Assembly (NCBI RefSeq): GCF_009601505.1
Contig: NZ_WITC01000042.1
Coordinates: 1 to 56,810, forward strand
Reading direction: 5' to 3'
DNA length: 56,810 bases
Source: Sinorhizobium terangae
GTDB lineage: Bacteria; Pseudomonadota; Alphaproteobacteria; Rhizobiales; Rhizobiaceae
The notes beneath the pieces are model-generated. The model did not search any database. It was not told the origin of the DNA and saw nothing but the letters and a program-made list of their open reading frames with translations. The position numbers and the translations under genes were made by a program. Numbering within the stretch: position 1 is the stretch's first letter; every line of letters starts with the position of its first letter. This document shows positions 5,205 to 43,007 of the stretch, one piece after another.

Positions 5205-6271
5205 GCAACACTCCGATGGCGTCCGCCGAGACGTGCGCCGTCGTAGCGCTCGCGCCGGATCGGCTCCCACCACCAGCCGTTGGCGAGATACCAATCGACC
5301 GTGTCGCTCAAACCCGCCTCGAAGTCCCGCGTCGGCCTCCAGCCAAGCTCATGCTCGATCTTGGAAGGGTCGATCGCATAGCGCCGATCGTGACCGGGCC
5401 GGTCGGCGACAAGCGTGATGAGATCGCGATAGCTCTTTCCGCCCTTGCGCGGCAGGCGGATGTCGAGCAGGTCGCAGATGCTCTCCATCACCGACAAATT
5501 GTTGCGCGTGGCCCGGGCGCCGATGTTGTAGCTCTCCCCTGGCCTCCCCTTCCTCATCACGAGATCCAGCGCGCGTGCATGGTCGTCGACGTGGAGCCAG
5601 TCGCGAACGTTCGCTCCCGATCCGTAGAGCGGCAGCGGCTTTTCCTCGATCGCATTGATGATCGTCAGGGGGATAAGCTTCTCGGGAAAATGAAACGGTC
5701 CGTAATTGTTGGAGGAGTTCGAGAGCACCACGGGCAGCCCATAAGTCTGATACCAGGCACGAACGAAATGATCCGCCGCCGCCTTGGAGGCGGCGTAGGG
5801 GGACGAAGGCGCGTAGCGCGTCTCTTCGACGAAAACGCCGCCGGAGAATGGGAGGTCCCCGAACACCTCGTCGGTGGAGACATGGTGAAAGCGAAACCGC
5901 TCGCGCGCTGTTGGGCCAAGCTCCGACCAGTAGGCCAATGCCGCTGAAAGCAGGCGGACCGTGCCGAGGACGTTTGTTTCCGCAAATGCGCCGGGCCCGT
6001 CGATCGATCGGTCGACATGGCTCTCGGCCGCGAGATGCATGACAGCATCGACGCGCTCGAGGCGCATGATGTCGAGCAGCGATTGCTCGTTGCGGATATC
6101 CGCCCGGTAGAAGACATGGCTCGGGTGATTGTCCACCGCGCGCAGCGACTGGAGATTGCCAGCATAGGTCAGCTTGTCGACATTGACGACCCGCTCGGCG
6201 CCATTGGCAACAAGATGCCGGCAGACCGCAGAGCCGATGAAGCCGGCGCCACCTGTGATGAGAACACGCAT
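5201..6271 (-). CDS. wgaI: dTDP-glucose 4,6-dehydratase (RfbB type)
   Basis: This 356-aa cytoplasmic enzyme is predicted to convert dTDP-glucose to dTDP-4-keto-6-deoxyglucose, the second step towards dTDP-rhamnose. The Rossmann NAD motif is at the very start (RVLITGGAGFIGS). The family signature STDEVFGDLPFSGG and the catalytic YAASKAAADHFVRAW (Tyr-x-x-x-Lys) follow. RPGHDRRYAIDPSKIEHELG is near the C-terminus. The start at 6271 is the Met immediately before the Rossmann strand; a further upstream ATG would add an unrelated 13-residue tail. It lies 10 bp after wgaH and overlaps wgaJ by 4 bp. Full length for the family. Confidence 0.95.
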   Translation of the reverse strand: MRVLITGGAGFIGSAVCRHLVANGAERVVNVDKLTYAGNLQSLRAVDNHPSHVFYRADIRNEQSLLDIMRLERVDAVMHLAAESHVDRSIDGPGAFAETNVLGTVRLLSAALAYWSELGPTARERFRFHHVSTDEVFGDLPFSGGVFVEETRYAPSSPYAASKAAADHFVRAWYQTYGLPVVLSNSSNNYGPFHFPEKLIPLTIINAIEEKPLPLYGSGANVRDWLHVDDHARALDLVMRKGRPGESYNIGARATRNNLSVMESICDLLDIRLPRKGGKSYRDLITLVADRPGHDRRYAIDPSKIEHELGWRPTRDFEAGLSDTVDWYLANGWWWEPIRRERYDGARLGGRHRSVA

Positions 6272-6281
6272 GCTTGCCCCC

Positions 6282-6845
6282 TCACCGGCCAAAATCGAAG
6301 AGCTTGGCATCGGCCAGCAACGATGCGTCCCGATCCTTCGCGGACAATCGCAAAAGATCGGCGTCCACGGGCCACTTTATCCCGATTTGCGGATCGTCGA
6401 AGCGGATCGCGCGCTCATGTTCTGCGGAATAGTGCTCGCTCACCTTGTAGAGGACCTCCGTCTCCGGTTCGAGGGTGACAAAACCATGGGCGAACCCCAC
6501 GGGCACCAGAATCTGGTTCCATCTTTCGGCCGAGAGTTCGAGACCAATCCACTGCGCGAATGTCGGCGAGCCCTTGCGGATATCGACGACCACGTCGAAC
6601 GCCCTCCCCCGCACGACCCGAACGAGCTTGGCCTGAGCGCGTGGCGGAAGCTGGTAGTGCAGGCCGCGCAACGTGCCCACAATTGCGGAATAGGAGTGGT
6701 TGTCCTGCACGAAAGCGAGCCGGATGCCATGCGCCAGCAAAGCCTCGGCATTGTAGGTCTCCGAAAAGAAGCCCCGCTCGTCGCCGAACCTGCGTGGTAT
6801 GATTTCCAGAACACCGTCGAGGCCCAGGGCTCTTATCTCAGGCAT
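6282..6845 (-). CDS. wgaH: dTDP-4-dehydrorhamnose 3,5-epimerase (RfbC type)
   Basis: This 187-aa cupin epimerase acts on the product of the dehydratase, giving dTDP-4-keto-L-rhamnose. Visible signatures are [33 protein letters not shown] (with the catalytic His), [15 protein letters not shown] and [20 protein letters not shown] (with the catalytic Tyr). Length is normal. The ATG at 6845 is chosen because the protein then begins [20 protein letters not shown], like its relatives. It overlaps the end of wgaG by 8 bp, so the two are translationally coupled. The epimerase product has no reductase partner here because wgaJ is truncated; a second rfbD elsewhere would be needed. Confidence 0.95.
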
Positions 6846-7719
6846 CGGCAAGCTCCCTGATGCGTCGCTGAAGGTAGATCGTGTATTCGTTCTTGCCGAG
6901 TAAGGCAGCGCGCTTGAGCACCTCATCGGCAGAGACATAGCCGAGCTCGAAGGCGATCTCTTCCGGGCACATGATCTTCACGCCCTGGCGATGCTCGATC
7001 GTACGCACGAAGGAGGCGGCATCGTGCAGGCTGTCATGGGTACCGGTATCGAGCCAGGCGTAGCCCCGGCCGAGACGGCAGACATGAAGGTCCCCCCGGT
7101 CGAGATAGGCGCGATTGACGTCGGTGATTTCCAGTTCGCCGCGGGCGGACGGTCTGATCGAGGCCGCAACGTCGAGCACGCTGTTCTCGTAGAAGTAGAG
7201 GCCCGTCACGGCCCAGCTCGATCCCGGGCGTTCCGGCTTCTCCTCGATAGTCTCAGCGCGGCCGCTGCGGCCGTTGAAGCTCACGACCCCGTAACGCTCC
7301 GGGTCGTCCACGCGATAGGCGAAGATCGTGGCGCCGCTTTTTCGGGCCGCGGCCTCCCGGCAGAGCTCAGGAAGGCCTGCGCCGTAGAAGATATTGTCTC
7401 CGAGGATCAGCGCGACCGGACTTTCCCCGACGAATTGCCGGCCGATGATGAAAGCTTCCGCAAGGCCGTTCGGCTCGGACTGCTCCGCATAGGAGATCGA
7501 GAGGCCGAGTTGACTTCCGTCGCCAAGCAACTCCTCGAACAGCGGCCTGTCCCTCGGCATGGTGATCACCAGAAAATCGCGAATTCCCGCCAGCATGAGC
7601 GTGCCGAGCGGGTAATAGATCATCGGCTTGTCGTGGACCGGCAGCAACTGCTTCGAAACCGAGATCGTCACCGGGTAGAGCCTGGTCCCCCTGCCGCCTG
7701 CAAGAATGATCCCCTTCAT
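6838..7719 (-). CDS. wgaG: Glucose-1-phosphate thymidylyltransferase (RfbA type)
   Basis: This 293-aa nucleotidyltransferase is predicted to make dTDP-glucose from dTTP and glucose-1-phosphate. It starts with the nucleotide-binding motif [15 protein letters not shown] and continues with [31 protein letters not shown] and [13 protein letters not shown], then [20 protein letters not shown]. All are standard for RfbA/RmlA. The start at 7719 places the motif at residue 2; longer forms add an unrelated leader. It is the first of the dTDP-sugar genes on this strand, 52 bp after wgaF. Confidence 0.96.
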
Positions 7720-32043: not shown

Positions 32044-33828
32044 TTATGGCAGCGTGTTTTGCGCCACATCGTTGCGACTATGCGAAGAGGCGACGTGAGC
32101 AATCTCGCCTGTCGCCGGCGAAGACGGGAGCCCTGCGGCACACGTTCGATCAACCAGGCTCGCTGTTATCGCTGCATCCTCGAAAAGCTCCTGCATGCGC
32201 AAATACTCGACCGAGAGCGTCGGGTCGAGCGCAAGGGCCTGCGAGACGAGCTGCCTGGCGCGGTCGAGGTCTGAACAGGCCATGCGCGCTGCGATCCGAT
32301 AAATGTAAGTGCGTCGCGTCTGGAATGGCAGTTTGTGCGAGACCTCGAACATCTCCTGGTAACGTCCGAGCGTGTACAGTGACGCGACGCGCTCCTCTGT
32401 TATCCAAACCGGTAGAAACGGATCGAGCGTTTCCGCGCGGTCAAGAAGCTGGAGCGCTCGTTCGGGCTCGCCTGCAAAGAGATAAAACGCGGCGCATCGC
32501 CCGATCGTGTAAGCATCGTTCGGCGCCATCTCGATGGCTTTCTCATGATGGAAGCGCGAGGCGGCGAAATCGCCCCTTTTCATCTTGAGCGAGCCCATGA
32601 CACGGTGCGCCTCCGGGTCTGTCGGGTCGAGTTCCAGCGCATGCGCCGTCTGCAACTCGCCGAGACGGAGATCGAAACTCGGCAGCGAACTCCAGGAGCA
32701 GACATGCATCGCGAAGGGCCGGCCGAAGCTCGGATCTGCCTTCATCGCCTTCTCGAACCAGTGCATCGCCTCGTGAAGGTGAAAGTCGGCCACCCCAGCC
32801 AGCCGATGATGGTCGAGGCCGCGGAGATAATGTTCGTAGGCGGACATGCTTTCTGGCCGCTTCAGACGCGCTGCGGCGAGTTCGGACTGTTCGATCCGAC
32901 CGGAAACGGTTGCCGCAACGCGGGCGGTGATCTCGTCCATGACGTCGAGAATTTCCTCGAAGGGACGTTGAATGCGATCCGACCACACCAGGTGCCCCCG
33001 CTCCGTCCCTGCGAGCGAGATGTTCAGCCGGACATAGCTGCCGGCCTTGCGGATGGAGCCTGCAACGACATAGTGCACGCCGAGCGACTTACCGATCTCA
33101 ACCGGATCGGTCGTTCGCAACACCATCGAGGCTGAGCGCGAGGTGACGAAAAGGCTCTTCAGGCGGCTGAGTTCGAGCGTCAGGTCGTCGGTCATCCCCT
33201 CTGCAAGAAACGTTTGGTCCTGATCCGCGACCGACGCCGTCGTGAACGGAGCGACAGCCACGGAGGTCGGCCTGATTGATGAAGGCGGTGGCGCCCGCGT
33301 CGGCGCGACCTGGAAGCGGTGGCGGTCCATGGCGGCGCCGACGCGGTAGATTTTGACCGGCTCCGACACGCCCTTCAGGTGCCGTTCGCCGATCGCTTCA
33401 AAGGCGCAGGGCGATACGCGCCGGACCTGATCGTAGAGCGCCTCCGAGACCTCGATCTCCCCCGGTTCGGCGGAGGCTTCGATACGTGAGGCAATGTTCA
33501 CGCCATCGCCGCGCAGGTCGTCGCCGACGACCGCGACGTCGGCGAGATGCAGGCCAAAGCGCATGTCATGCGTGCACGTGCGCGGCACGGATCCGATGGC
33601 CAGTCGCGCCTCCATCGCCGCCCTCAGCGCATTCACCGGGCTCGAAAATTCGGCAAGGATCGCGTCTCCTGCCGTGTTGAACACCCTACCGCCAAAACTC
33701 GCCACGACCTCGCCGATGAGGCTCATACAGTAGACGACGCGCGCGATCGTCTGCTCCTCGTCGAGCTCCATCGCCGACGTCGAAGCCACGAAGTCCCCAA
33801 CCAGAATTGCAGCCAGCTTCCGATGCAT
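32044..33828 (-). CDS. Class III adenylate cyclase with TPR repeats
   Basis: This 594-aa protein is predicted to make cAMP from ATP. The cyclase domain fills residues ~1-165, with the two metal-binding aspartates at D12 (AAILVGDFVAST) and D55 (FNTAGDAILAEF), and GDGVNIASRIEASAEPGEIE further on. A FlgO-like segment follows (~200-310; VAPFTTASVADQDQTFLAEG). Then come several tetratricopeptide repeats (~330-560; HEAMHWFEKAMKADPSFGRP, AHALELDPTDPEAHRVMGSL). No membrane segment is seen, so it is cytoplasmic. Rhizobia carry many such cyclases; the stimulus sensed by the C-terminal part is unknown. It is divergent from the small gene at 34151 and ends towards wgeH. Confidence 0.9.
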   Translation of the reverse strand: MHRKLAAILVGDFVASTSAMELDEEQTIARVVYCMSLIGEVVASFGGRVFNTAGDAILAEFSSPVNALRAAMEARLAIGSVPRTCTHDMRFGLHLADVAVVGDDLRGDGVNIASRIEASAEPGEIEVSEALYDQVRRVSPCAFEAIGERHLKGVSEPVKIYRVGAAMDRHRFQVAPTRAPPPSSIRPTSVAVAPFTTASVADQDQTFLAEGMTDDLTLELSRLKSLFVTSRSASMVLRTTDPVEIGKSLGVHYVVAGSIRKAGSYVRLNISLAGTERGHLVWSDRIQRPFEEILDVMDEITARVAATVSGRIEQSELAAARLKRPESMSAYEHYLRGLDHHRLAGVADFHLHEAMHWFEKAMKADPSFGRPFAMHVCSWSSLPSFDLRLGELQTAHALELDPTDPEAHRVMGSLKMKRGDFAASRFHHEKAIEMAPNDAYTIGRCAAFYLFAGEPERALQLLDRAETLDPFLPVWITEERVASLYTLGRYQEMFEVSHKLPFQTRRTYIYRIAARMACSDLDRARQLVSQALALDPTLSVEYLRMQELFEDAAITASLVDRTCAAGLPSSPATGEIAHVASSHSRNDVAQNTLP

Positions 33829-34150: not shown

Positions 34151-34363
34151 ATGGAACGAACAAACGCTTGCAAATTGGCAGAAGAATACCTGCGCCTCGG
34201 CGGTCATCGCCGGGTGGTGATCGACGATAACCAGACCTCGGTCAGAAACTGGGAGCCGGAGCCTGTGGCGGCCGAGGCGTTCTGGAGGAAAAACGTCGAG
34301 ATACTGGGACCGGAAAGACAGCGCGAGGTACAACTCCTGCTGCCTACGATCAATCGCGCATGA
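34151..34363 (+). CDS. Short hypothetical protein (70 aa)
   Basis: From the ATG at 34151, preceded by GGAGTGAGGG, the frame encodes 70 residues: MERTNACKLAEEYLRLGGHR, then VVIDDNQTSVRNWEPEPVAA, then EAFWRKNVEILGPERQREVQ and LLLPTINRA. It is soluble, helical at both ends and has one cysteine. No family is recognised. An in-frame upstream ATG (34010) would add 47 residues of low-quality sequence and is not preferred. It precedes the three-enzyme operon by 147 bp on the same strand, so it could be a leader gene, a substrate or an unrelated small protein. Confidence 0.5.
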   Translation: MERTNACKLAEEYLRLGGHRRVVIDDNQTSVRNWEPEPVAAEAFWRKNVEILGPERQREVQLLLPTINRA

Positions 34364-34510
34364 GGCGGAAGCCCGACTGATTTCGCATGAGGGCCAGACT
34401 GTGCCGCGCGACGCGGCTCATCTTTTGCGCCCATGCGCGGAACCGAAAAGTTCATTTCTGAATTGTAGCTGTGTCACCGATACGCGGAATACGGCTGCGA
34501 AAGCGTTGAG

Positions 34511-35341
34511 ATGAATAGACCGGATTGCCCGAGCAAGGTGTTGACGGAGTGTCTCGACGACGAATGGTGGACACAGCATCGTGGTGACTCTCCGATCCTC
34601 GCCACGGCCATTCACAATGGCCACGCGGTGCGCGGCGCGGTCGAACGTCTCATTACTCTATCGGCCGCGGAGCGGCTGCGCGAGGAAGATCCCTTCACCG
34701 AGTTCATCATCCGCGATTTCCCGAACCGGATTGTTGTTCATCGGTCGAGATTTGAGGTCGATGTCAATCGCCCCCGCGACGGTGCGATATATGTGAGGCC
34801 GGAGCAGGCCTGGGGTCTCAAAGTCTGGACCCGTCAGCCCCCGCACGATTTGGTCGAGGCATCGCTGGCGATGCATGACGAATATTATGCGATGCTCGAA
34901 GCGATGCTGGCGGGCATCGAGCGGCGCCATGGGCGTTTCGTCGTTCTCGACGTCCACAGCTACAACCACCGGCGCAGCGGCCCCGAAGCGGAAGCGACGC
35001 GAGCGGAAGCCGCACCGGAGGTCAATATCGGCACGTTTTCGATGGATCGCGTCAAATGGGCAAGAGTGGTGGATGCTTTCGTCAAGGCCTTGCGCTCCAC
35101 CGACTTCCACGGGCGGCGGCTCGACGTCCGCGAAAACATCGCATTTCAGGGCAGAGGTGAACAGACGCGATTTATCCATGAGCGCTTCCCCGACACGGGC
35201 TGCGCCATTGCCGTCGAATTCAAGAAATTCTTCATGGACGAGTGGACGGGCGAGCCGAACATGGAGGCGCTTGTAGCCCTGAGGAAGCTCGTCTCGTCGA
35301 CGCTGCCGTCGCTTGTCAACGCTTTGGGAGCGGACCAATGA
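34511..35341 (+). CDS. N-formylglutamate amidohydrolase-like protein
   Basis: This 276-aa protein belongs to the N-formylglutamate amidohydrolase (FGase/HutG) family of zinc amide hydrolases. Visible features are TAIHNGHAVRGAVERLITLS near the N-terminus (metal His), VHRSRFEVDVNRPRDGAIYV with the Arg-Asx substrate motif, VVLDVHSYNHRR (D147, H149), and CAIAVEFKKFFMDEWTGEPN with the C-terminal Glu. Unlike HutG it is not near histidine-catabolism genes. It is fused by a 4-bp overlap (ATGA) to a DUF1704 peptidase-like gene and then an ATP-grasp ligase. The context favours a peptide or amino-acid-amide substrate rather than histidine breakdown. Confidence 0.85.
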   Translation: MNRPDCPSKVLTECLDDEWWTQHRGDSPILATAIHNGHAVRGAVERLITLSAAERLREEDPFTEFIIRDFPNRIVVHRSRFEVDVNRPRDGAIYVRPEQAWGLKVWTRQPPHDLVEASLAMHDEYYAMLEAMLAGIERRHGRFVVLDVHSYNHRRSGPEAEATRAEAAPEVNIGTFSMDRVKWARVVDAFVKALRSTDFHGRRLDVRENIAFQGRGEQTRFIHERFPDTGCAIAVEFKKFFMDEWTGEPNMEALVALRKLVSSTLPSLVNALGADQ

Positions 35342-37212
35342 AACGTTCCGCCGCGCCCGCGCCTCGGGACACTCCAGATACGCCCGACTGGCTCGCCGAG
35401 ATCCTGGTATGCCTCAAGGCCGGAAAGGCCGTGCGAAAGGACCTTCCTGACGGCGGACGGCTGCATATCGACCGCGCGCTTCCTTTTCTTTGCCTGCACA
35501 TCTTCGGCGACGAAGACGGTCCGGTCGCCCGCGAGATTGCCCAAGCGAATGCATCCTACCTCATTGCGCCCGATGCCAAGGTTGCCGCCTCGGTCGTCGA
35601 AGCCGTCGGCGCGCTGCTCAAGAGGCGTCTTGGTGCATTCATGGTTCTGGAAATGGGCGAACTTGCGCGCGACGAACTGTTGACCGACGACGCGCCATAC
35701 CTTCCGCCATTCAAGATCGAGGTCACGGCAAGCCCGGAAGGGCCCGCCCGGATTGCCGCCAAGGCATTCGCCAATGCCGCCGAGGCGACCGAAGCGAAGT
35801 TCCGCACGCCGCGTGTGGAACTTCGTGAAGCCGACGGGCTCGATCTACCGTTTCCCTGTCTTCGGGTGCGGTTTGCACCGATCTATCGGCAACGTGAGTC
35901 CGGCAACATCTATCCGCAGCTTCGTGAACGGTTGATCGCCAGTATCTTCGATGCGGGCCTGCAAGCCTTCGCGGCTTTCGTCAGGGCCACCAAAAGCATG
36001 AACATCTCGACGCATCGAGCGCTCGGCAGGAAGGCCTTCATCGACGCCGTGGTACGCGCCGATCGGCATATCGACGAGGTCGCCTCGACGTTCGATTTCC
36101 TGCTCGCGGTGACCCCGATCAATGCCGACGCGGCATGGAGCGACTTTGCCGCGAGCGAGTACCGGCGAGCCCCGCGCTTTCTCTACCGGCCGTTGACGCT
36201 GGAGGTCGAGAAGGCGAAGAAAAAGCTCTTCTCTATCGCCTTCGATCACCTCGAAGACCCGGTGCTGTACCAGCTCTATCGCGAAAAGCAGCAGGAGCTC
36301 GACCTTCAGCTTTCGTTGCTTTCGGCCCGGGAGAGCGCAAAATTCATCGAATTCGGCCGTGCCCTCTATGGCCCTGTCGAACGGGAACTCTTGCGGGCTG
36401 CGCGGGATATTCTGACCCGTACTGGTGATGGAGACGCTAATCGAGGCCAAGGGCGCGTCGCGGAGCGCCACGCCGATTGCTATTTCGTTGAGCAACAGGC
36501 GCGCGCGATGATCGCCGAGTATCGGCGGCGTTATGCCGGCTTTGACGCCACCGTTGAAGTGCGTGATGACCTTCCCTCGGGCCTCATGGTTTCCGGCCAC
36601 CGCCTGCTCATTGCACGCAGCACGGCGATGGAAGTCGAACGCGTCGAGCCGATCTTGAGTCACGAGATCGGCGTCCACCTGCTGACCTATTTCAACGGCT
36701 CGGCGCAGGGCTTGCGCCTTTTCCGCTCGGGCCTCGCCGGATACGAAGGCATGCAGGAGGGGCTGGCGGTCTTCGCGGAGTTTCTGACAGGCGGCTTGAG
36801 CAGCGAGCGGCTGCGCCTCATCGCCGCCCGTGTCATCGCCTGCGCCGCGATGCTTGATGGCGCATCGCTGCCGGAAGCTTATCGACTGCTTGTAGAGGAC
36901 CACGGGTTCTTGAAGGCCGATGCCTTCAACATCGTCCTGCGCGTCTATCGCAGCGGGGGTCTCGCCAAGGATGCGATCTATCTGCGCGGCCTTCTGCAAC
37001 TCCTCGCCCATCTGGCGGCCGACGGCGCCTTGGAGCCCTTCTGGATGGGAAAGATCGCCGCTTCGCATTTTGGCGTCATGCAGGAACTGAGTGCCCGTGG
37101 GCTGCTTGGTGTGCCGGCCGTGCACCCTATATTTCTTGATAATCCGGAAGCACCTTCGCGCCTGGCCAGAGCACGCGCGGGTATGTCGCCGCTCGACATG
37201 GTCGAACATTAG
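35338..37212 (+). CDS. DUF1704 / QEGLA-motif (MATCAP-like) putative metallopeptidase
   Basis: This 624-aa protein carries the two hallmarks of the QEGLA family (DUF1704): an HExxxH metal motif at residues 442-447 (ILSHEIGVHLLTYFNG) and GMQEGLAVFAEFLTGG around residue 473. The Glu in QEGLA is the likely third ligand. Some database entries call it a flavohemoglobin-expression modulator; the vertebrate MATCAP branch removes the C-terminal tyrosine of tubulin. Residues ~1-430 are helical and unassigned. No signal peptide is seen, so it is cytoplasmic. The ATG at 35338 overlaps the preceding stop; a longer form would start inside that gene. A bacterial substrate is not known to me. Confidence 0.88.
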   Translation: MKRSAAPAPRDTPDTPDWLAEILVCLKAGKAVRKDLPDGGRLHIDRALPFLCLHIFGDEDGPVAREIAQANASYLIAPDAKVAASVVEAVGALLKRRLGAFMVLEMGELARDELLTDDAPYLPPFKIEVTASPEGPARIAAKAFANAAEATEAKFRTPRVELREADGLDLPFPCLRVRFAPIYRQRESGNIYPQLRERLIASIFDAGLQAFAAFVRATKSMNISTHRALGRKAFIDAVVRADRHIDEVASTFDFLLAVTPINADAAWSDFAASEYRRAPRFLYRPLTLEVEKAKKKLFSIAFDHLEDPVLYQLYREKQQELDLQLSLLSARESAKFIEFGRALYGPVERELLRAARDILTRTGDGDANRGQGRVAERHADCYFVEQQARAMIAEYRRRYAGFDATVEVRDDLPSGLMVSGHRLLIARSTAMEVERVEPILSHEIGVHLLTYFNGSAQGLRLFRSGLAGYEGMQEGLAVFAEFLTGGLSSERLRLIAARVIACAAMLDGASLPEAYRLLVEDHGFLKADAFNIVLRVYRSGGLAKDAIYLRGLLQLLAHLAADGALEPFWMGKIAASHFGVMQELSARGLLGVPAVHPIFLDNPEAPSRLARARAGMSPLDMVEH

Positions 37213-37221
37213 GAGCCGGAC

Positions 37222-38268
37222 ATGCGCATCGCCTTTTTCGTCAATTCCATCGAAGGCGAGGCCACCTATTACGCCACGACCTGGCTTGCGCTCGCTGCGC
37301 TCGCCCGTGGCCACGATGTTTGCTACGTCATGCCGGGGGATTTCGTGCTGCGTTCCGACGACAGCCTGATAGTCCGCGCCACGACCCTGCATGGCCCGAA
37401 ACCGAAAAAGCCGGAGACGTTGCTCAATGCGCTCAAGGACGAGCGGGCAAAGATCAAGACAATCGACGCCAATGACATCGACGTGCTTTTTCTGCGCAAC
37501 GATCCTTCGGAAGATGCCGAAAAGCGTTCTTGGGCGGCCTATGCCGGCGTGAATTTCGGACATCTGGCAGCCGATCGCGGCGTGATCGTCGTCAACGATC
37601 CGGCTGGCTTGGCGAGTGCCCAGAACAAGCTCTATTTGCAAGGTTTTCCGGAAGTTGTTCGCCCCGTCTCAATGATCTCCCGGAGCATCGAGGAGATCCG
37701 GGACTTCATCGATGCGCATCCTGATGGCGTGATCCTGAAGCCACTGCAGGGATCAGGCGGCAAGAACGTTTTCAAGATCAGTTCCAGGGAAGAAGCCAAC
37801 CTCAATCAGATATTCGAGGTTGCCAGCGGCGAAGGGTACCTGATCGCCCAGACCTACCTGCCCGAAGCGACTGCCGGTGACGTCCGCCTTTTTCTCATGA
37901 ACGGACGGCCATTGGAGCGCGATGGCGTTCATGCCGCGCTCCGCCGGGTGCCGGCCAAGGGTGATGTGCGCTCGAATATGCACGCCAGCGGTACGCCCGA
38001 AGCGGCAACGGTCACGCCGGAAATCCTCGCCCTGGCGGAAAAGCTCCGACCAAAACTCGTGGAAGACGGAATGTTCCTGGTCGGCCTCGACATCGTCGGC
38101 GACAAGATACTGGAGATCAATGTCTACAGTCCCGGAGCCCTCCCGGAGATCGCCGCGCTTTACGGCGTGGACTTCAGCGAGGACATCATCATCGCGCTGG
38201 AAAACAAGCTGAGCATCCGACAACTCTATTCGGGGACATTATCGAACCGCACGCTGGCGACGCTTTGA
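37222..38268 (+). CDS. Glutathione-synthetase-like ATP-grasp ligase
   Basis: This 348-aa enzyme has the GshB/ATP-grasp layout. The N-terminal domain (MRIAFFVNSIEGEATYYATT, then VLFLRNDPSEDAEKRSW) is followed by NDPAGLASAQNKLYL, the ATP-binding strand VILKPLQGSGGKNVF (K173), AQTYLPEATAGDVRLFLMNG and GDVRSNMHASGTPEAA. Metal ligands sit near the C-terminus in GLDIVGDKILEINVYSP (E298, N300). It would join a carboxylate to an amine using ATP. It starts 9 bp after the DUF1704 gene with AGGAG in front. Glutathione synthesis is an alternative, but this location beside a putative carboxypeptidase suggests a different acceptor. A RIME-free 129-bp gap precedes the next operon. Confidence 0.87.
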   Translation: MRIAFFVNSIEGEATYYATTWLALAALARGHDVCYVMPGDFVLRSDDSLIVRATTLHGPKPKKPETLLNALKDERAKIKTIDANDIDVLFLRNDPSEDAEKRSWAAYAGVNFGHLAADRGVIVVNDPAGLASAQNKLYLQGFPEVVRPVSMISRSIEEIRDFIDAHPDGVILKPLQGSGGKNVFKISSREEANLNQIFEVASGEGYLIAQTYLPEATAGDVRLFLMNGRPLERDGVHAALRRVPAKGDVRSNMHASGTPEAATVTPEILALAEKLRPKLVEDGMFLVGLDIVGDKILEINVYSPGALPEIAALYGVDFSEDIIIALENKLSIRQLYSGTLSNRTLATL

Positions 38269-38397
38269 CTCGTCAAGTGGCCGCCCGATTTCTGGCGCGA
38301 ATATGCGGGATGATTTCAAACGTGAGTTTACAAAAGTAATATTATATGATTTTTTCTCTGCAGCTGCATGGAGAGCAGCTTTCATTGGGAGGAAATC

Positions 38398-39360
38398 ATG
38401 AAATTTGCGAAGGCACTCGCGAGTGCAACGATTCTTGCTGCCTGCACTTTTGGCAGCGCATCGGCCGCGGAACTCGTCGTCGGCTTTTCCCAGATCGGAT
38501 CGGAGTCCGGCTGGCGCGCCGCTGAAACGACGCTGACGAAGCAGCAGGCCGAGCAGCGCGGAATCGATCTCAAATTCGCCGATGCGCAGCAGAAGCAGGA
38601 AAACCAGATCAAGGCCATTCGTTCCTTCATCGCGCAAGGCGTGAACGCTATCCTTGTCGCTCCCGTGGTCGCGACCGGCTGGGACGAAGTCCTGCAAGAG
38701 GCGAAGGATGCGGAAATTCCTGTCATCCTGCTCGACCGCACGGTTGACGCATCCGACGATCTTTATTTGACCGCTGTGACCTCCGATCTCGTCCACGAAG
38801 GCAACGTCGCCGGCAAGTGGCTTGCCGATACCGTTGCCGGCAAGCCCTGCAACGTCGTCGAGCTTCAGGGCACGACTGGTTCGTCGCCGGCGATCGACCG
38901 CAAGAAGGGCTTCGAACAGGCCCTCTCTGGCCACGACAACCTGAAGATCATCCGCAGCCAGACCGGCGACTTCACCCGCACCAAGGGTAAGGAAGTCATG
39001 GAAAGCTTCCTGAAGGCGGAAGGCGGCGGCAAGAACATCTGCGCGCTCTACGCCCATAACGACGACATGGCCGTCGGCGCGATCCAGGCCATCAAGGAAG
39101 CCGGCCTGAAGCCGGGCAAGGACATTCTCGTCGTCTCAATCGATGCCGTTCCGGATATCTTCCAGGCCATGGCCGCGGGCGAAGCCAACGCGACGGTCGA
39201 ACTGACCCCGAACATGGCCGGTCCCGCCTTCGACGCCCTTGCCGCCTACCTCAAGGATGGCAAGGCGCCGGCAAAATGGATCCAGACGGAATCGAAGCTT
39301 TATACACAAGCCGATGATCCGATGAAGGTCTACGAGGAGAAGAAGGGCCTCGGCTACTGA
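38398..39360 (+). CDS. ytfQ: Sugar ABC transporter substrate-binding protein (YtfQ type)
   Basis: This 320-aa periplasmic protein starts with a signal peptide (MKFAKALASATILAACTFGS, cleavage near ASA|AE). It has the type I periplasmic binding fold of the ribose/galactofuranose group: VGFSQIGSESGWRAAETTLT, IRSFIAQGVNAILVAPVVAT, VILLDRTVDASDDLYLTAVT and HNDDMAVGAIQAIKEAGLKP. The first block is characteristic of YtfQ, which binds galactofuranose in E. coli. GGGAGG lies 5 bases before the ATG. It leads the operon ytfQ-ytfR-ytfT-yjfF-gntR. A sugar related to galactose would fit the nearby galactoglucan genes, though no link is proven. Confidence 0.9.
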   Translation: MKFAKALASATILAACTFGSASAAELVVGFSQIGSESGWRAAETTLTKQQAEQRGIDLKFADAQQKQENQIKAIRSFIAQGVNAILVAPVVATGWDEVLQEAKDAEIPVILLDRTVDASDDLYLTAVTSDLVHEGNVAGKWLADTVAGKPCNVVELQGTTGSSPAIDRKKGFEQALSGHDNLKIIRSQTGDFTRTKGKEVMESFLKAEGGGKNICALYAHNDDMAVGAIQAIKEAGLKPGKDILVVSIDAVPDIFQAMAAGEANATVELTPNMAGPAFDALAAYLKDGKAPAKWIQTESKLYTQADDPMKVYEEKKGLGY

Positions 39361-39368
39361 TCTCGTTT

Positions 39369-39400
39369 GCGACCCGCCCGGCAGATCCGGTGCGGGTCGC
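39369..39400 (+). terminator. Hairpin after ytfQ (attenuator or mRNA stabiliser)
   Basis: GCGACCCGC and GCGGGTCGC form a perfect 9-bp stem around a 14-base loop, starting 8 bp after the ytfQ stop. Only a weak T-rich run follows (TTCTGCCCTTCTG). Such stem-loops after binding-protein genes often keep that gene more highly expressed than the rest of its operon. Confidence 0.65.
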
Positions 39401-39502
39401 TTCTGCCCTTCTGCAAAGAGAGTCCTACCGGAAACGAGCAGGCGTCGCCGCGATGCGGCACTGTTGTCTCCATCCGGTCTCGACTTTCCTGAGACGGTAT
39501 CC

Positions 39503-41020
39503 ATGCAAGCCAGCAGCGACAACATTCTTACGGCGGTCCGGATCGACAAGGGCTTTCCCGGAACCAAGGCCTTGGACAAGGTCGACTTCCATCTCCAGCG
39601 AGGCGAAGTTCACGCGCTTCTCGGCGAAAACGGCGCCGGCAAATCGACGCTCATCAAATGCCTGACCGGCGCCTACCGCCGGGATGGCGGCAGCATCCTG
39701 CTCGACGGGGTCGAAGTCGACCCGCGCGACACCTTCGATGCCCAGCGGCTGGGGATAGGAACAGTCTATCAGGAGGTGAACCTGTTGCCGAACCTCAGCG
39801 TCGCCGAGAACCTGTTTCTTGGACGGCAGCCGCGCCGCTTCGGCATGGTCGACATCCGGGCGATGAACCGCATGGCACGCGAGCTTCTGTCCGAATACGA
39901 GCTCGAGCTCGACGTCACCCGCGCGCTCGCGAGCTATTCGGTCGCCATCCAGCAGGTCGTCGCCATCGCCCGCGCCGTCGACCTTTCGGGCAAGGTGCTG
40001 ATCCTCGACGAGCCGACGGCGAGTCTCGATGCGCATGAGGTCGCGATGCTCTTTCGCATCGTCCGGCGCCTCAAGGCACGCGGCCTCGGCATCATATTCA
40101 TCACCCACTTCCTCGAGCAGGTCTACGAAATTTCGGACCGCATCACGGTGCTCAGGAATGGGCGGCTTGTCGGAACGCGCAACACCGCCGACCTCGACCG
40201 CCGCGATCTGATCGCAATGATGATCGGCCGCGAACTCGCGGCGGAGATTCACGCAGCCGAGGCTCACGCAGCGGAAGGCGAGCCGCGCTACCGGTTCAGG
40301 AACTACGGCCGGCGAGGACGCATCGATCCTTTCGATCTCGACGTCAGGGCGGGTGAGGTCGTCGGCATAGCCGGTCTGCTCGGTTCGGGCCGTACCGAAA
40401 CGGCAGAGGTACTTTTCGGTGCCCATCGAGCCGACAGCGGCACAGCGGAAATCGACGGCCGCCGCGTCGAGTTGTCGTCGCCTCGTGCCGCCATTCGCCG
40501 AAAATTCGGCTTTTGCCCGGAGGACCGCAAGACCGACGGCATCGTCGGCGATCTCTCGGTGCGCGAAAACATCGTTCTTGCTCTGCAGGCGAGACGGGGC
40601 TGGACGCGGCCGATCTCGCGCGCGGAGCAGAACCGGCTGGCCGACCTCTATATCCGGGCACTGGATATCCGAACGGCCGACAGGGAAAAGCCGATCAAGC
40701 TGCTTTCCGGCGGCAACCAGCAGAAAGCCATCCTCGCCCGCTGGCTGGCCACCGAACCCGAATTCCTGATCCTCGACGAACCGACGCGCGGCATCGATGT
40801 TGGCGCACATGCCGAGATCGTCAGGCTGATCGAATCGCTGCGTGAGAAGGGCATGTCACTGATCGTCATTTCATCGGAACTCGAAGAGCTGGTCGCCTAC
40901 AGCACTCGGATCATTGTTCTTCGCGACCGCGCCCACGTCGCCGAACTCGACGGAGAGCGCATTACCGCGCATCAGATCGTCGAGGCGATTGCCGCGGCCA
41001 ACGAGCGGAGGGCATCGTGA
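39503..41020 (+). CDS. ytfR: Sugar ABC transporter ATPase, two-domain (YtfR type)
   Basis: This 505-aa cytoplasmic protein has two fused ATPase domains, as in all ribose-class importers. The first has Walker A GENGAGKSTLIKCLTGAYR, SYSVAIQQVVAIARAVDLSG and Walker B VLILDEPTASLD. The second has the usual degenerate Walker A (GLLGSGRTETAEVLFG), CPEDRKTDGIVGDLSVRENI, LSGGNQQKAILARWLATEPE and FLILDEPTRGIDVGAHAEI. The ATG at 39503 gives the normal N-terminus (ILTAVRIDKGFPGTKALDKV). It overlaps the next gene by 4 bp. Confidence 0.93.
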   Translation: MQASSDNILTAVRIDKGFPGTKALDKVDFHLQRGEVHALLGENGAGKSTLIKCLTGAYRRDGGSILLDGVEVDPRDTFDAQRLGIGTVYQEVNLLPNLSVAENLFLGRQPRRFGMVDIRAMNRMARELLSEYELELDVTRALASYSVAIQQVVAIARAVDLSGKVLILDEPTASLDAHEVAMLFRIVRRLKARGLGIIFITHFLEQVYEISDRITVLRNGRLVGTRNTADLDRRDLIAMMIGRELAAEIHAAEAHAAEGEPRYRFRNYGRRGRIDPFDLDVRAGEVVGIAGLLGSGRTETAEVLFGAHRADSGTAEIDGRRVELSSPRAAIRRKFGFCPEDRKTDGIVGDLSVRENIVLALQARRGWTRPISRAEQNRLADLYIRALDIRTADREKPIKLLSGGNQQKAILARWLATEPEFLILDEPTRGIDVGAHAEIVRLIESLREKGMSLIVISSELEELVAYSTRIIVLRDRAHVAELDGERITAHQIVEAIAAANERRAS

Positions 41021-42042
41021 TACCGATCCTCCGGACCTATCTCGCCCGATTGCTGCCGCAACTGATTGCGCTTTCGGCTATTCTCATCGCGATTTCAATG
41101 ACATTTCCCGGTTTTCTCAACCTGGAAATTCAAAACGACCGCCTCTACGGCAGTCTGATCGACATCCTCAACCGTGGCGCTCCTGTCGTGCTGCTGGCGA
41201 TCGGCATGACCGTCGTCATTGCAACCAAGGGCATCGACCTTTCCGTCGGCGCGGTCATGGCGATTTGCGGTGCCGTAGCCGCGTCCTTTATCACGGCCGG
41301 CCATTCGCTCTTCGAGACCCTCCTCATAACGATTGCGGTCGGCGTCCTCTGCGGCATGTGGAATGGCATTCTCGTCGCCGTGCTCGACATTCAGCCGATC
41401 ATTGCGACGCTTGTGCTGATGGTCGCCGGGCGAGGCATCGCCCAGTTGGTGACCGAAGGCGCGATTCTCACCTTCAATGATCCCGGCCTCATCTTCATCG
41501 GCAGCGGTTCCTTTGCCGGCCTACCGATGCCGGTCGTGGTCTGGCTGGTCTTCGGAGTCCTCGTCGCACTGCTCGTCAGGCAAAGCGCGCTCGGCATGCT
41601 GATCGAGGCGATCGGCGTCAATCGCCAGGCGAGCACGCTGTCGGGGGTTCTCACGCCGGTGCTTCTGATTGCCGCCTATATGCTTTCCGGCCTCAGCGCC
41701 GCGATCGCCGGGATCATCGCCGCTGCCGATATCAGGGGGGCCGACGCCAACAATGCAGGCCTCTGGCTGGAGCTCGACGCCATTCTGGCCGTCGTCGTCG
41801 GCGGCACGTCCCTTCTCGGCGGCCGCTTCAGCATCGCCGCGTCAGTGCTCGGGGCGATTATCATCCAGGCGATCAATACCGGCATCCTGCTTTCCGGTTT
41901 CCCGCCAGAGTTCAACCTCATCATCAAGGCGGCAATCATCGTCTTCATCCTGGTGCTTCAGTCGCCGCGCTTCCGCACCGCCTTTGCCTTCCTCGCTGTC
42001 CCACGGCGAGCGGCCAAAACGACCGAGCAGGAGGCGAAATGA
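41017..42042 (+). CDS. ytfT: Sugar ABC transporter permease (YtfT type)
   Basis: This 341-aa inner-membrane protein has about eight to ten hydrophobic segments. It carries the ribose-class permease signature VVLLAIGMTVVIATKGIDLS followed by VGAVMAICGAVAASF, and later DAILAVVVGGTSLLGGRFSI with GAIIIQAINTGILLSGFPPE. The GTG start overlaps the ATPase stop. It pairs with yjfF to form the membrane pore. Confidence 0.92.
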   Translation: MIPILRTYLARLLPQLIALSAILIAISMTFPGFLNLEIQNDRLYGSLIDILNRGAPVVLLAIGMTVVIATKGIDLSVGAVMAICGAVAASFITAGHSLFETLLITIAVGVLCGMWNGILVAVLDIQPIIATLVLMVAGRGIAQLVTEGAILTFNDPGLIFIGSGSFAGLPMPVVVWLVFGVLVALLVRQSALGMLIEAIGVNRQASTLSGVLTPVLLIAAYMLSGLSAAIAGIIAAADIRGADANNAGLWLELDAILAVVVGGTSLLGGRFSIAASVLGAIIIQAINTGILLSGFPPEFNLIIKAAIIVFILVLQSPRFRTAFAFLAVPRRAAKTTEQEAK

Positions 42043-43007
42043 AGCAGAAATATCTGCCGCTTACGGCAACGATCTTAATCTTCGTCTTAAGCTACGCGCT
42101 TTGCGCCGCCCAGTATCCGAACATTCTCTCCACCCGCGTCATCGGCAATCTGTTAACCGACAATGCCTTCCTCGGCATCGCGGCCGTCGGCATGACATTC
42201 GTCATTCTTTCGGGAGGCATCGACCTCTCGGTCGGATCGGTCATCGCCTTCACCGGGGTCTTTCTGGCGGTCGTGCTGGAACATACGAGCATGCACCCGC
42301 TCATGGCCTTCGCGCTGGTCCTCGCGATAACCACGCTTTTCGGCGCGCTGATGGGAATGATCATCCATTATCTCGAAATGCCGGCCTTCATCGTGACGCT
42401 GGCCGGAATGTTCCTCGCTCGCGGCATGGCCTTCGTGCTGTCGATCGATTCTATTCCGATCAAGCATCCGTTCTACGCAATATTGAAAGGGCTCTATTAC
42501 AAACTGCCAGGCGGCGGGCGCATCACCCTCATCGGCGGGCTGATGCTGCTCGTCTTCGCCGTCGGCATCCTCATCGCTCACAGGACCCGGTTCGGCACGA
42601 ACGTCTATGCGCTCGGCGGCGGCACGGCGACGGCGAAGCTCATGGGCGTCCCGGTCGCAAGCACAACGGTCAAGATCTATGCCCTCTCGGGGCTGCTCGC
42701 GGGCCTCTCCGGCATCGTTTTCTCGCTTTACACGTCGGCTGGCTATTCGCTTGCCGCGGTCGGCGTCGAGCTTGATGCGATCACCGCCGTCGTCATCGGA
42801 GGCACGCTCTTGACCGGTGGATCGGGCTTTGTTGCCGGAACGCTTGTCGGCATCTTCATCCAGGGCCTCATCCAGACCTACATAACCTTCGACGGATCGC
42901 TCTCCAGCTGGTGGACAAAGATCCTGATCGGCGCGCTTCTCTTTGCCTTTATCCTTCTGCAGAAGGGGATCATCCACCTGTCGCGCGATGCCCGACAACG
43001 CGCCTGA
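42039..43007 (+). CDS. yjfF: Sugar ABC transporter permease (YjfF type)
   Basis: This 322-aa inner-membrane permease shows GIAAVGMTFVILSGGIDLSV, GSVIAFTGVFLAVVLEH, GTNVYALGGGTATAKLMGVP and DAITAVVIGGTLLTGGSGFV, all diagnostic of the YjfF subgroup. It begins with the ATGA overlap to ytfT. With YtfQ, YtfR and YtfT it completes a four-part importer in the E. coli order. Confidence 0.92.
   Translation: MKQKYLPLTATILIFVLSYALCAAQYPNILSTRVIGNLLTDNAFLGIAAVGMTFVILSGGIDLSVGSVIAFTGVFLAVVLEHTSMHPLMAFALVLAITTLFGALMGMIIHYLEMPAFIVTLAGMFLARGMAFVLSIDSIPIKHPFYAILKGLYYKLPGGGRITLIGGLMLLVFAVGILIAHRTRFGTNVYALGGGTATAKLMGVPVASTTVKIYALSGLLAGLSGIVFSLYTSAGYSLAAVGVELDAITAVVIGGTLLTGGSGFVAGTLVGIFIQGLIQTYITFDGSLSSWWTKILIGALLFAFILLQKGIIHLSRDARQRA

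Follow-up and report, generated by a model that had tools for sequence, protein, structure and literature searches.

Known ligase-eraser systems and the operon of Sinorhizobium terangae

Cycles in which a ligase adds amino acids and an eraser takes them off again are known to exist in bacteria, since RimK and RimB have been shown experimentally to put glutamate on and to remove it, and a RimB-RimK hybrid also exists (PMC11957791). In this system (RimABK; S6/RpsF polyglutamylation), an ATP-grasp ligase and a dedicated protease are encoded at one locus, and residues are added to and taken from the C-terminus (PMC11957791, PMC12239564). RloABC of Pseudomonas aeruginosa likewise encodes an ATP-grasp enzyme, RloC, together with a protease (PMC12239564). 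In eukaryotes, the human TMCPs/MATCAP are described as taking off C-terminal Tyr and also chains of Glu, while leaving the Glu at the branch point (PMC10499314). Here we describe a packed three-gene operon in a 56,810-nucleotide stretch of Sinorhizobium terangae DNA (contig NZ_WITC01000042.1; hereafter the window), which encodes an N-formylglutamate amidohydrolase (FGase)-like enzyme (FG), a DUF1704 protein (the family's present Pfam name is MATCAP, PF08014), and a GshB-like ATP-grasp ligase (Table 1).

The operon resembles RimK-RimB in the pairing of ligase and eraser, and by analogy a counterpart cycle could operate here. The eraser differs: RimB is a retropepsin-like aspartic protease, whereas here a MATCAP metallopeptidase and an FGase-like enzyme are encoded, and no retropepsin-like protease is among the operon proteins' Pfam hits (E ≤ 0.1), which are limited to models for FGase, MATCAP, GSH-S, and ATP-grasp. 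RimBK fuses ligase and protease, whereas the fusion found here joins two hydrolases. In RloABC, the protease is a secreted retropepsin and a membrane protein is an inactive transglutaminase; the trio includes neither. In comparison with the tubulin code (TTL/TTLL, MATCAP/TMCP, and CCP), the ligase is GshB-type, FG is closest to FGase and not to CCP, and there is no tubulin. The earlier note on this DNA had drawn a parallel with TTL and MATCAP; no TTL model is among the ligase's Pfam hits at E ≤ 0.1, and the ligase belongs to subfamily PRK12458 with a GSH-S_N domain, so the parallel holds for the working principle and not for the ligase itself.

Bacterial MATCAP-family proteins are labelled "flavohemoglobin expression-modulating QEGLA motif protein", and in the literature searched we found no reaction for them, no paper linking DUF1704 or FGase to ATP-grasp, and no description of the trio. 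A 2009 amidoligase survey by Iyer and colleagues reportedly predicts peptide-tagging operons, among which the trio may already be listed. COG3930 is presumably the DUF1704 group. Vibrio vulnificus VV2_1203 (COG3930) and VV2_1204 (glutathione synthetase) carry consecutive tags in an uncommented table of candidate clade-specific genes (PMC3091676), which means that the pair has been tabulated before, and a QEGLA-motif protein of Photobacterium damselae (A0J47_RS17025) is listed with a fold value of 27.51 among hypotheticals in a low-salinity transcriptome table (PMC10308900). What would be new is the set of enzymes from which such a ligase-eraser module is built; bacterial ligase-eraser cycles as such are already known.

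The three genes form a conserved unit

The gene coordinates confirm the tight packing described in the earlier note: the FG stop and the DUF1704 start (ATG at 35338) share an ATGA, a 4-base overlap, and a 9-bp gap separates the DUF1704 gene from the ligase. The 624-aa length of the DUF1704 protein is that of an identical database protein (P0001), and its closest named homologue is from Sinorhizobium garamanticum (92% identity). The source genome (7.08 Mb, 139 contigs) has one MATCAP locus.

We surveyed 199 genomes of the window's family (Rhizobiaceae) and fetched 13-15 kb around 17 DUF1704 loci, in which gene starts were chosen by script. DUF1704 is patchily distributed (19 of 199 genomes), and all 17 fetched loci have FG, DUF1704, and the ligase in that order on one strand, with the 4-base FG/DUF1704 overlap. 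The ligase lies 8-14 bp downstream of DUF1704 in 15 of them and at 69 and 173 bp in the other two. With the window itself and a contig-limited locus (L011, genome G176; a 3,054-bp contig with a partial FG, the DUF1704 gene, and a partial ligase), the trio is present in 19/19 DUF1704-bearing genomes of the family. Conversely, 18 of the 199 genomes have a PRK12458 ligase over the cut-off, and every one of them carries DUF1704; the one DUF1704 carrier without such a hit is the contig-limited genome. The conserved overlap and the close ligase are more than chance.

For a wider scan, with one genome per species and a DUF1704 alignment as query, we examined the best 80 of at least 573 confirmed relatives. 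A ligase lies within 1.5 kb in 80/80 of these, and on the same strand at most 100 bp downstream in 75. The five exceptions are L101 (173 bp), L141 (genes in pieces), L145 (1.4 kb off), L150 (script start choice), and L152 (opposite strand). FG is present in 76/80 and absent from L157, L158, L164, and L151, whose contig starts at the DUF1704 gene; it is cut by the contig end in L147, L155, and L161, and the genes are rearranged in L152. These loci come from Pseudomonadota, Planctomycetota, Gemmatimonadota, Acidobacteriota, Verrucomicrobiota, Bacteroidota, Calditrichota, Campylobacterota, Myxococcota, and Poribacteria, several of them from metagenome-assembled genomes, and the trio thus recurs in about ten bacterial phyla. 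Rare co-occurrence, which the earlier note had named as the outcome that would speak against it, did not appear in the gene-neighbourhood survey that it had proposed. Taken together, the counts support the trio as a conserved unit of a ligase, a MATCAP-fold peptidase, and an FGase-fold amidase.

Two of the departing loci have features of their own. On a plasmid of Rhizobium sp. RCAM05350 (L141, 7137-10908), FG, MATCAP, and ligase are each in two pieces, in a decayed or mis-sequenced operon. In L145, an open reading frame (ORF) at 5763-7180, which we take to resemble the magnesium transporter MgtE, stands between the MATCAP gene and the ligase.

Because the 80 loci were picked by similarity to the window's long-type protein, samples chosen otherwise were also examined. 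DUF1704 occurs in 47 of 398 Pseudomonadota genomes (a few places, mostly fragments, were outside the fetched set). Outside the window's family, a ligase was found at 11 of 12 long or fused loci (11.5-15 kb fetched); at the same 12 loci FG is separate in four (two at 1.5-2 kb), fused in six, and not found in two. At eight short-type loci (9.8-15 kb), neither ligase nor FG was found at E ≤ 1e-4 (0/8), and 30 short-type loci with 1.5-kb flanks gave one ATP-grasp match (L041; 27%, opposite strand). A second sample came from the phylum of Planctomycetes bacterium Pan216, where 38 of 199 genomes carry 45 places, 30 of which were examined with 1.5-kb flanks. The ligase adjoins 10/10 long-type genes (L191-L200; MATCAP at least 359 bits against long-type queries; L199 as a 396-aa frame only) and is beside 1/20 short-type genes (at most 286 bits), there as a 51-bit hit, the two groups having been drawn after the scores were seen. 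Since the ligase stands beside long-type genes and is nearly absent at short-type ones, the ligase link goes with the long type.

Hydrolase fusions and tandem ligases

At six loci (L069, L076-L080), FGase and MATCAP are joined in one ORF of about 660-670 aa, and the ligase precedes it. Both domains exceed the Pfam cut-offs in 5/5 fused ORFs scanned, and relatives of one fused protein have both in 120/120 among the matches listed (of 968); where named, these relatives mostly belong to Thalassotalea, Colwellia, and their kin. That two hydrolases are fused beside a ligase is strong evidence that the enzymes serve one pathway.

Other loci have ligases in tandem, with two in L146, three in L156, and the order FG-MATCAP-ligase-ligase-MATCAP-ligase in L163. 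The first ligases of these three loci and the L157 ligase form one clade (support 100/100) apart from the others. In the ligase alignment (A7, 46 rows), the only row departing at the candidate metal positions is L152, with one Glu-to-Asp exchange at E298; the tandem copies therefore keep D290, E298, and N300. Tandem ligases fit successive or different additions. Matched ligase and MATCAP subtypes in tandem operons had also been considered as support; L157 and L163 fit this pattern, and it was dropped because L158 departs from it.

The three proteins

The DUF1704 protein scores 300.5 bits against MATCAP PF08014 (cut-off 27) and 354.6 bits against TIGR02421, the model for QEGLA proteins (cut-off 338.65). 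The AlphaFold2 model has a predicted local distance difference test score of 92.1, and the fold is that of human MATCAP. Conservation was read from alignment A5, 42 rows of DUF1704 ORFs from 80 loci, which leaves out the frame-broken L141, ORFs with doubtful starts or ends (L118, L126, L137, L152, L158, L161, and L165), and many close relatives. H442, E443, H447, and E474 are kept in all 42 long-type rows, in line with the HExxxH and QEGLA motifs that the earlier note had seen. QEG is likely the counterpart of the EEG motif of TMCP1/MATCAP, on an inferred pairing of residues; in human TMCP1, the E281A and E316A mutants are inactive (PMC10499314). C-terminal carboxypeptidase activity is predicted for the MATCAP domain by analogy with its human relatives.

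The N-terminal domain of the same protein was first matched to FG by profile comparison at 70% probability, and at 94.1% with deeper alignments. Against the fused FGase domains it reaches 98.5%, a value that may be flattered because the fused rows came from an alignment also holding the window protein; the 94.1% is unaffected. This degenerate FGase-like domain and the fusions elsewhere go beyond the earlier note's account.

FG scores 86.9-87.4 bits against FGase PF05013 (cut-off 28.9), and both score and fold place it in this family, to which the earlier note had likened it. With HutG, the N-formylglutamate deformylase of histidine degradation, it shares the PF05013 family and fold. It differs in falling far under the HutG equivalog TIGR02017 (25.4 against 278.75 bits), and it is the weakest of five FGase-family loci in the genome, the four others scoring 152.3-253.4 bits. 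H35, E58, D84, D147, H149, and E236 are each kept in 38/38 rows of alignment A6.

The ligase matches GSH-S_ATP (177.9 bits, cut-off 23) and GSH-S_N (43.5, cut-off 21.3), exceeds the cut-off of NF009110 (PRK12458; 475.7 over 408 bits), and aligns to E. coli GshB (1gsa) over residues 24-330 of 348. It has the GSH-S_N and GSH-S_ATP pair of GshB, and the catalytic D, E, and N, aligned with 1gsa residues that we take to bind Mg, are kept, which bears out the earlier description of a GshB-like enzyme with intact metal ligands. In contrast to GshB, it falls under both glutathione-synthase equivalog cut-offs (TIGR01380, 197.4-197.7 against 299.05 bits; NF003573, 211.7 against 272), and just after the conserved Asn it has SPG where E. 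coli GshB and the genome's own GshB have SPT/APT. It also fails the RimK equivalog NF007764 (35.8 against 331 bits). A canonical GshB is encoded at G000:C17:19628-20554 (386.3 bits, cut-off 299.05), and the operon ligase is not the genome's only GshB-type enzyme; an ordinary and sole glutathione synthetase, which would have undone the earlier proposal, is thus not what we found. The ligase C-terminus (window 38245-38265) is conserved, with a TL ending in 29 of the 46 A7 ligases, and fused-type loci end differently; a docking tail or a self-modification site is possible.

Table 1. Positions of the operon genes, domains, and motifs in the window.
Feature	Position	Strand	Remarks
FG, FGase-family (PF05013) amidohydrolase-like gene	34511..35341	+	276 aa; predicted eraser/amidase
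FG His35	34613..34615	+	invariant, 38/38; candidate metal ligand, judged from the fold
FG His149 (DVHSYN)	34955..34957	+	invariant, 38/38; putative metal ligand
DUF1704/MATCAP protein	35338..37212	+	624 aa; degenerate FGase-fold domain N-terminal, MATCAP peptidase domain C-terminal
Degenerate FGase/carboxypeptidase-fold domain, residues 31-219	35428..35994	+	
MATCAP domain, residues 269-614	36142..37179	+	
HEIGVH (HExxxH metal motif), residues 442-447	36661..36678	+	H442, E443, H447 in 42/42
QEG motif, residues 473-475	36754..36762	+	E474 in 42/42
GshB-like ATP-grasp ligase, subfamily PRK12458/NF009110	37222..38268	+	348 aa; predicted writer
Ligase D290, E298, N300	38089..38121	+	aligned with 1gsa metal residues; D 46/46, E 45/46, N 46/46

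Proposed function and alternatives

We propose that the operon is a conserved module in which the ligase extends a protein or peptide at a carboxyl end by an amino acid, the MATCAP protein cuts the addition back, and the FGase-like enzyme removes the last residue, and we give this reading a probability of roughly 0.4. Following the chemistry of its family, the ligase would activate a carboxylate as an acyl phosphate with ATP and join the amino acid to it. The residue added would most likely be glutamate, because RimK adds Glu, TMCP/MATCAP enzymes remove Glu chains, and FGase is named for N-formylglutamate. The MATCAP domain would then trim C-terminal residues, as human relatives do, and the separate FG, which belongs to a family that cleaves the amide in N-formylglutamate, would cut the branch-point or first amide and so remove the last residue left by a carboxypeptidase. 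The degenerate FGase domain within the MATCAP protein would probably hold the substrate or the partner FGase, and in some planctomycetes and gemmatimonads, ligases of the two clades in tandem could add successive or different residues.

Several observations weigh against this proposal. BLAST clustering of flanking ORFs of at least 60 aa in 81 loci gave no fourth constant gene or acceptor (the largest clusters cover 20, 10, and 6 loci), and a short acceptor peptide could be missed because of this length limit and because the clusters carry no family annotation; the 14 largest neighbour clusters are scattered in distance and strand or confined to one clade. The link also has gaps: two genomes of the family have a second PRK12458 ligase (L169, 7489-8532; L170, 7524-8561) whose fetched surroundings (16 kb) contain neither FG nor DUF1704, the long DUF1704 gene of L072 has neither FG nor ligase nearby, L074 lacks FG, and FG was found at 5 of the 10 long-type loci of the Pan216-phylum sample (1.5-kb flanks). 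Ligase and MATCAP subtypes pair inconsistently, as in L158, where a type-A MATCAP is followed by a type-B ligase. Among the hydrolases, the FGase part of the L077 fusion lacks the DxHS motif and looks degenerate, the FGase-like domain of the DUF1704 protein has lost catalytic positions, that protein is 19% identical to human MATCAP, and FG resembles CCP5 weakly (E 3.2e-3, template modelling score 0.32). The most likely residue, glutamate, is named from family analogy. Finally, the closest solved relative of the ligase is GshB, a small-peptide enzyme, and PRK12458 has been classed as GshB in a published survey (PMC3462692).

An almost equally probable alternative, given that the ligase resembles GshB and that the survey turned up no protein acceptor, is that the ligase makes a small non-ribosomal peptide (a glutathione analogue, a dipeptide osmolyte, or a gamma-glutamyl peptide), which the MATCAP protein and the FGase-like enzyme degrade. 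The GSH-S_N and GSH-S_ATP domains and the alignment to E. coli GshB agree with this, as does the lack of a linked protein substrate among the 81 loci, and the two-clade tandem ligases of L146, L156, and L163 fit stepwise peptide building, which has been argued for linked ligases (PMC4431377). On the other hand, no neighbour cluster is broad enough to supply the first step (the largest, 20 of 81 loci, and without annotation), MATCAP relatives of known function are described as acting on protein tails (PMC10499314), and it would be unusual for a single small product to need two distinct hydrolases.

A more far-reaching form of the protein or peptide modification cycle would be a widespread bacterial "glutamylation code", in which one ATP-grasp writer and two erasers that differ in fold reversibly mark a conserved protein or peptide and from which the MATCAP enzymes acting in the eukaryotic tubulin code would descend; we regard this as unlikely. 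Less probable still is peptide scavenging or detoxification, in which the hydrolases would cleave some peptide that is modified or N-acylated, with the ligase then conjugating or re-synthesising a product. The patchy distribution in the family, the varied neighbours, and the sugar ATP-binding cassette (ABC) transporter gene that adjoins the operon both in the window and in the four relatives closest to it would suit such a role, but the near-complete phyletic coupling with the ligase and the fusion of the hydrolases suggest one tight cycle. Ordinary glutathione metabolism, with a second glutathione synthetase beside unrelated hydrolases, agrees with the NCBI name of NF009110 (glutathione synthetase) and with the published assignment of PRK12458, yet it is very improbable given the canonical GshB elsewhere, the failed equivalog cut-offs, and a gene order shared by about ten phyla, which unrelated neighbours would scarcely have preserved.

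Surroundings of the operon

The earlier note began the operon at 34151, which is not the FG start; it lies 360 bp upstream and is the ATG of a 70-aa ORF (34151-34363, + strand) that matches no Pfam or NCBIfam model at E ≤ 0.1. This ORF was considered as a modified precursor peptide and rejected as substrate, because a tblastn search of the 17 family loci (E ≤ 1e-4; L089-L168 were outside it) placed it beside one of them, on the other strand: a 57% identical relative stands beside the L053 operon and points away from it. No sigma-70-like promoter was found, and terminator-like sites are uninformative (4 against 4.6 expected by chance).

Directly downstream (38368-43007, + strand) are a substrate-binding protein gene over the cut-off for galactofuranose YtfQ and then ORFs resembling the remaining ABC transporter parts; a YtfQ-type binding-protein gene at about 100 bp is common to L089-L092 as well as the window. 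The divergent upstream gene (32044-33828, - strand) encodes a guanylate/adenylate cyclase domain and tetratricopeptide repeats.

Implications

The survey gives long-type MATCAP proteins a partner ligase and an amidase, and with them a testable reaction cycle. If the small-peptide alternative is true, a peptide metabolite common to about ten phyla awaits discovery. If the proposed module for adding and removing C-terminal residues is real, RimK-RimB would be joined by another ligase-eraser system widespread in bacteria, and the enzyme family that edits animal tubulin tails would gain a prokaryotic setting.

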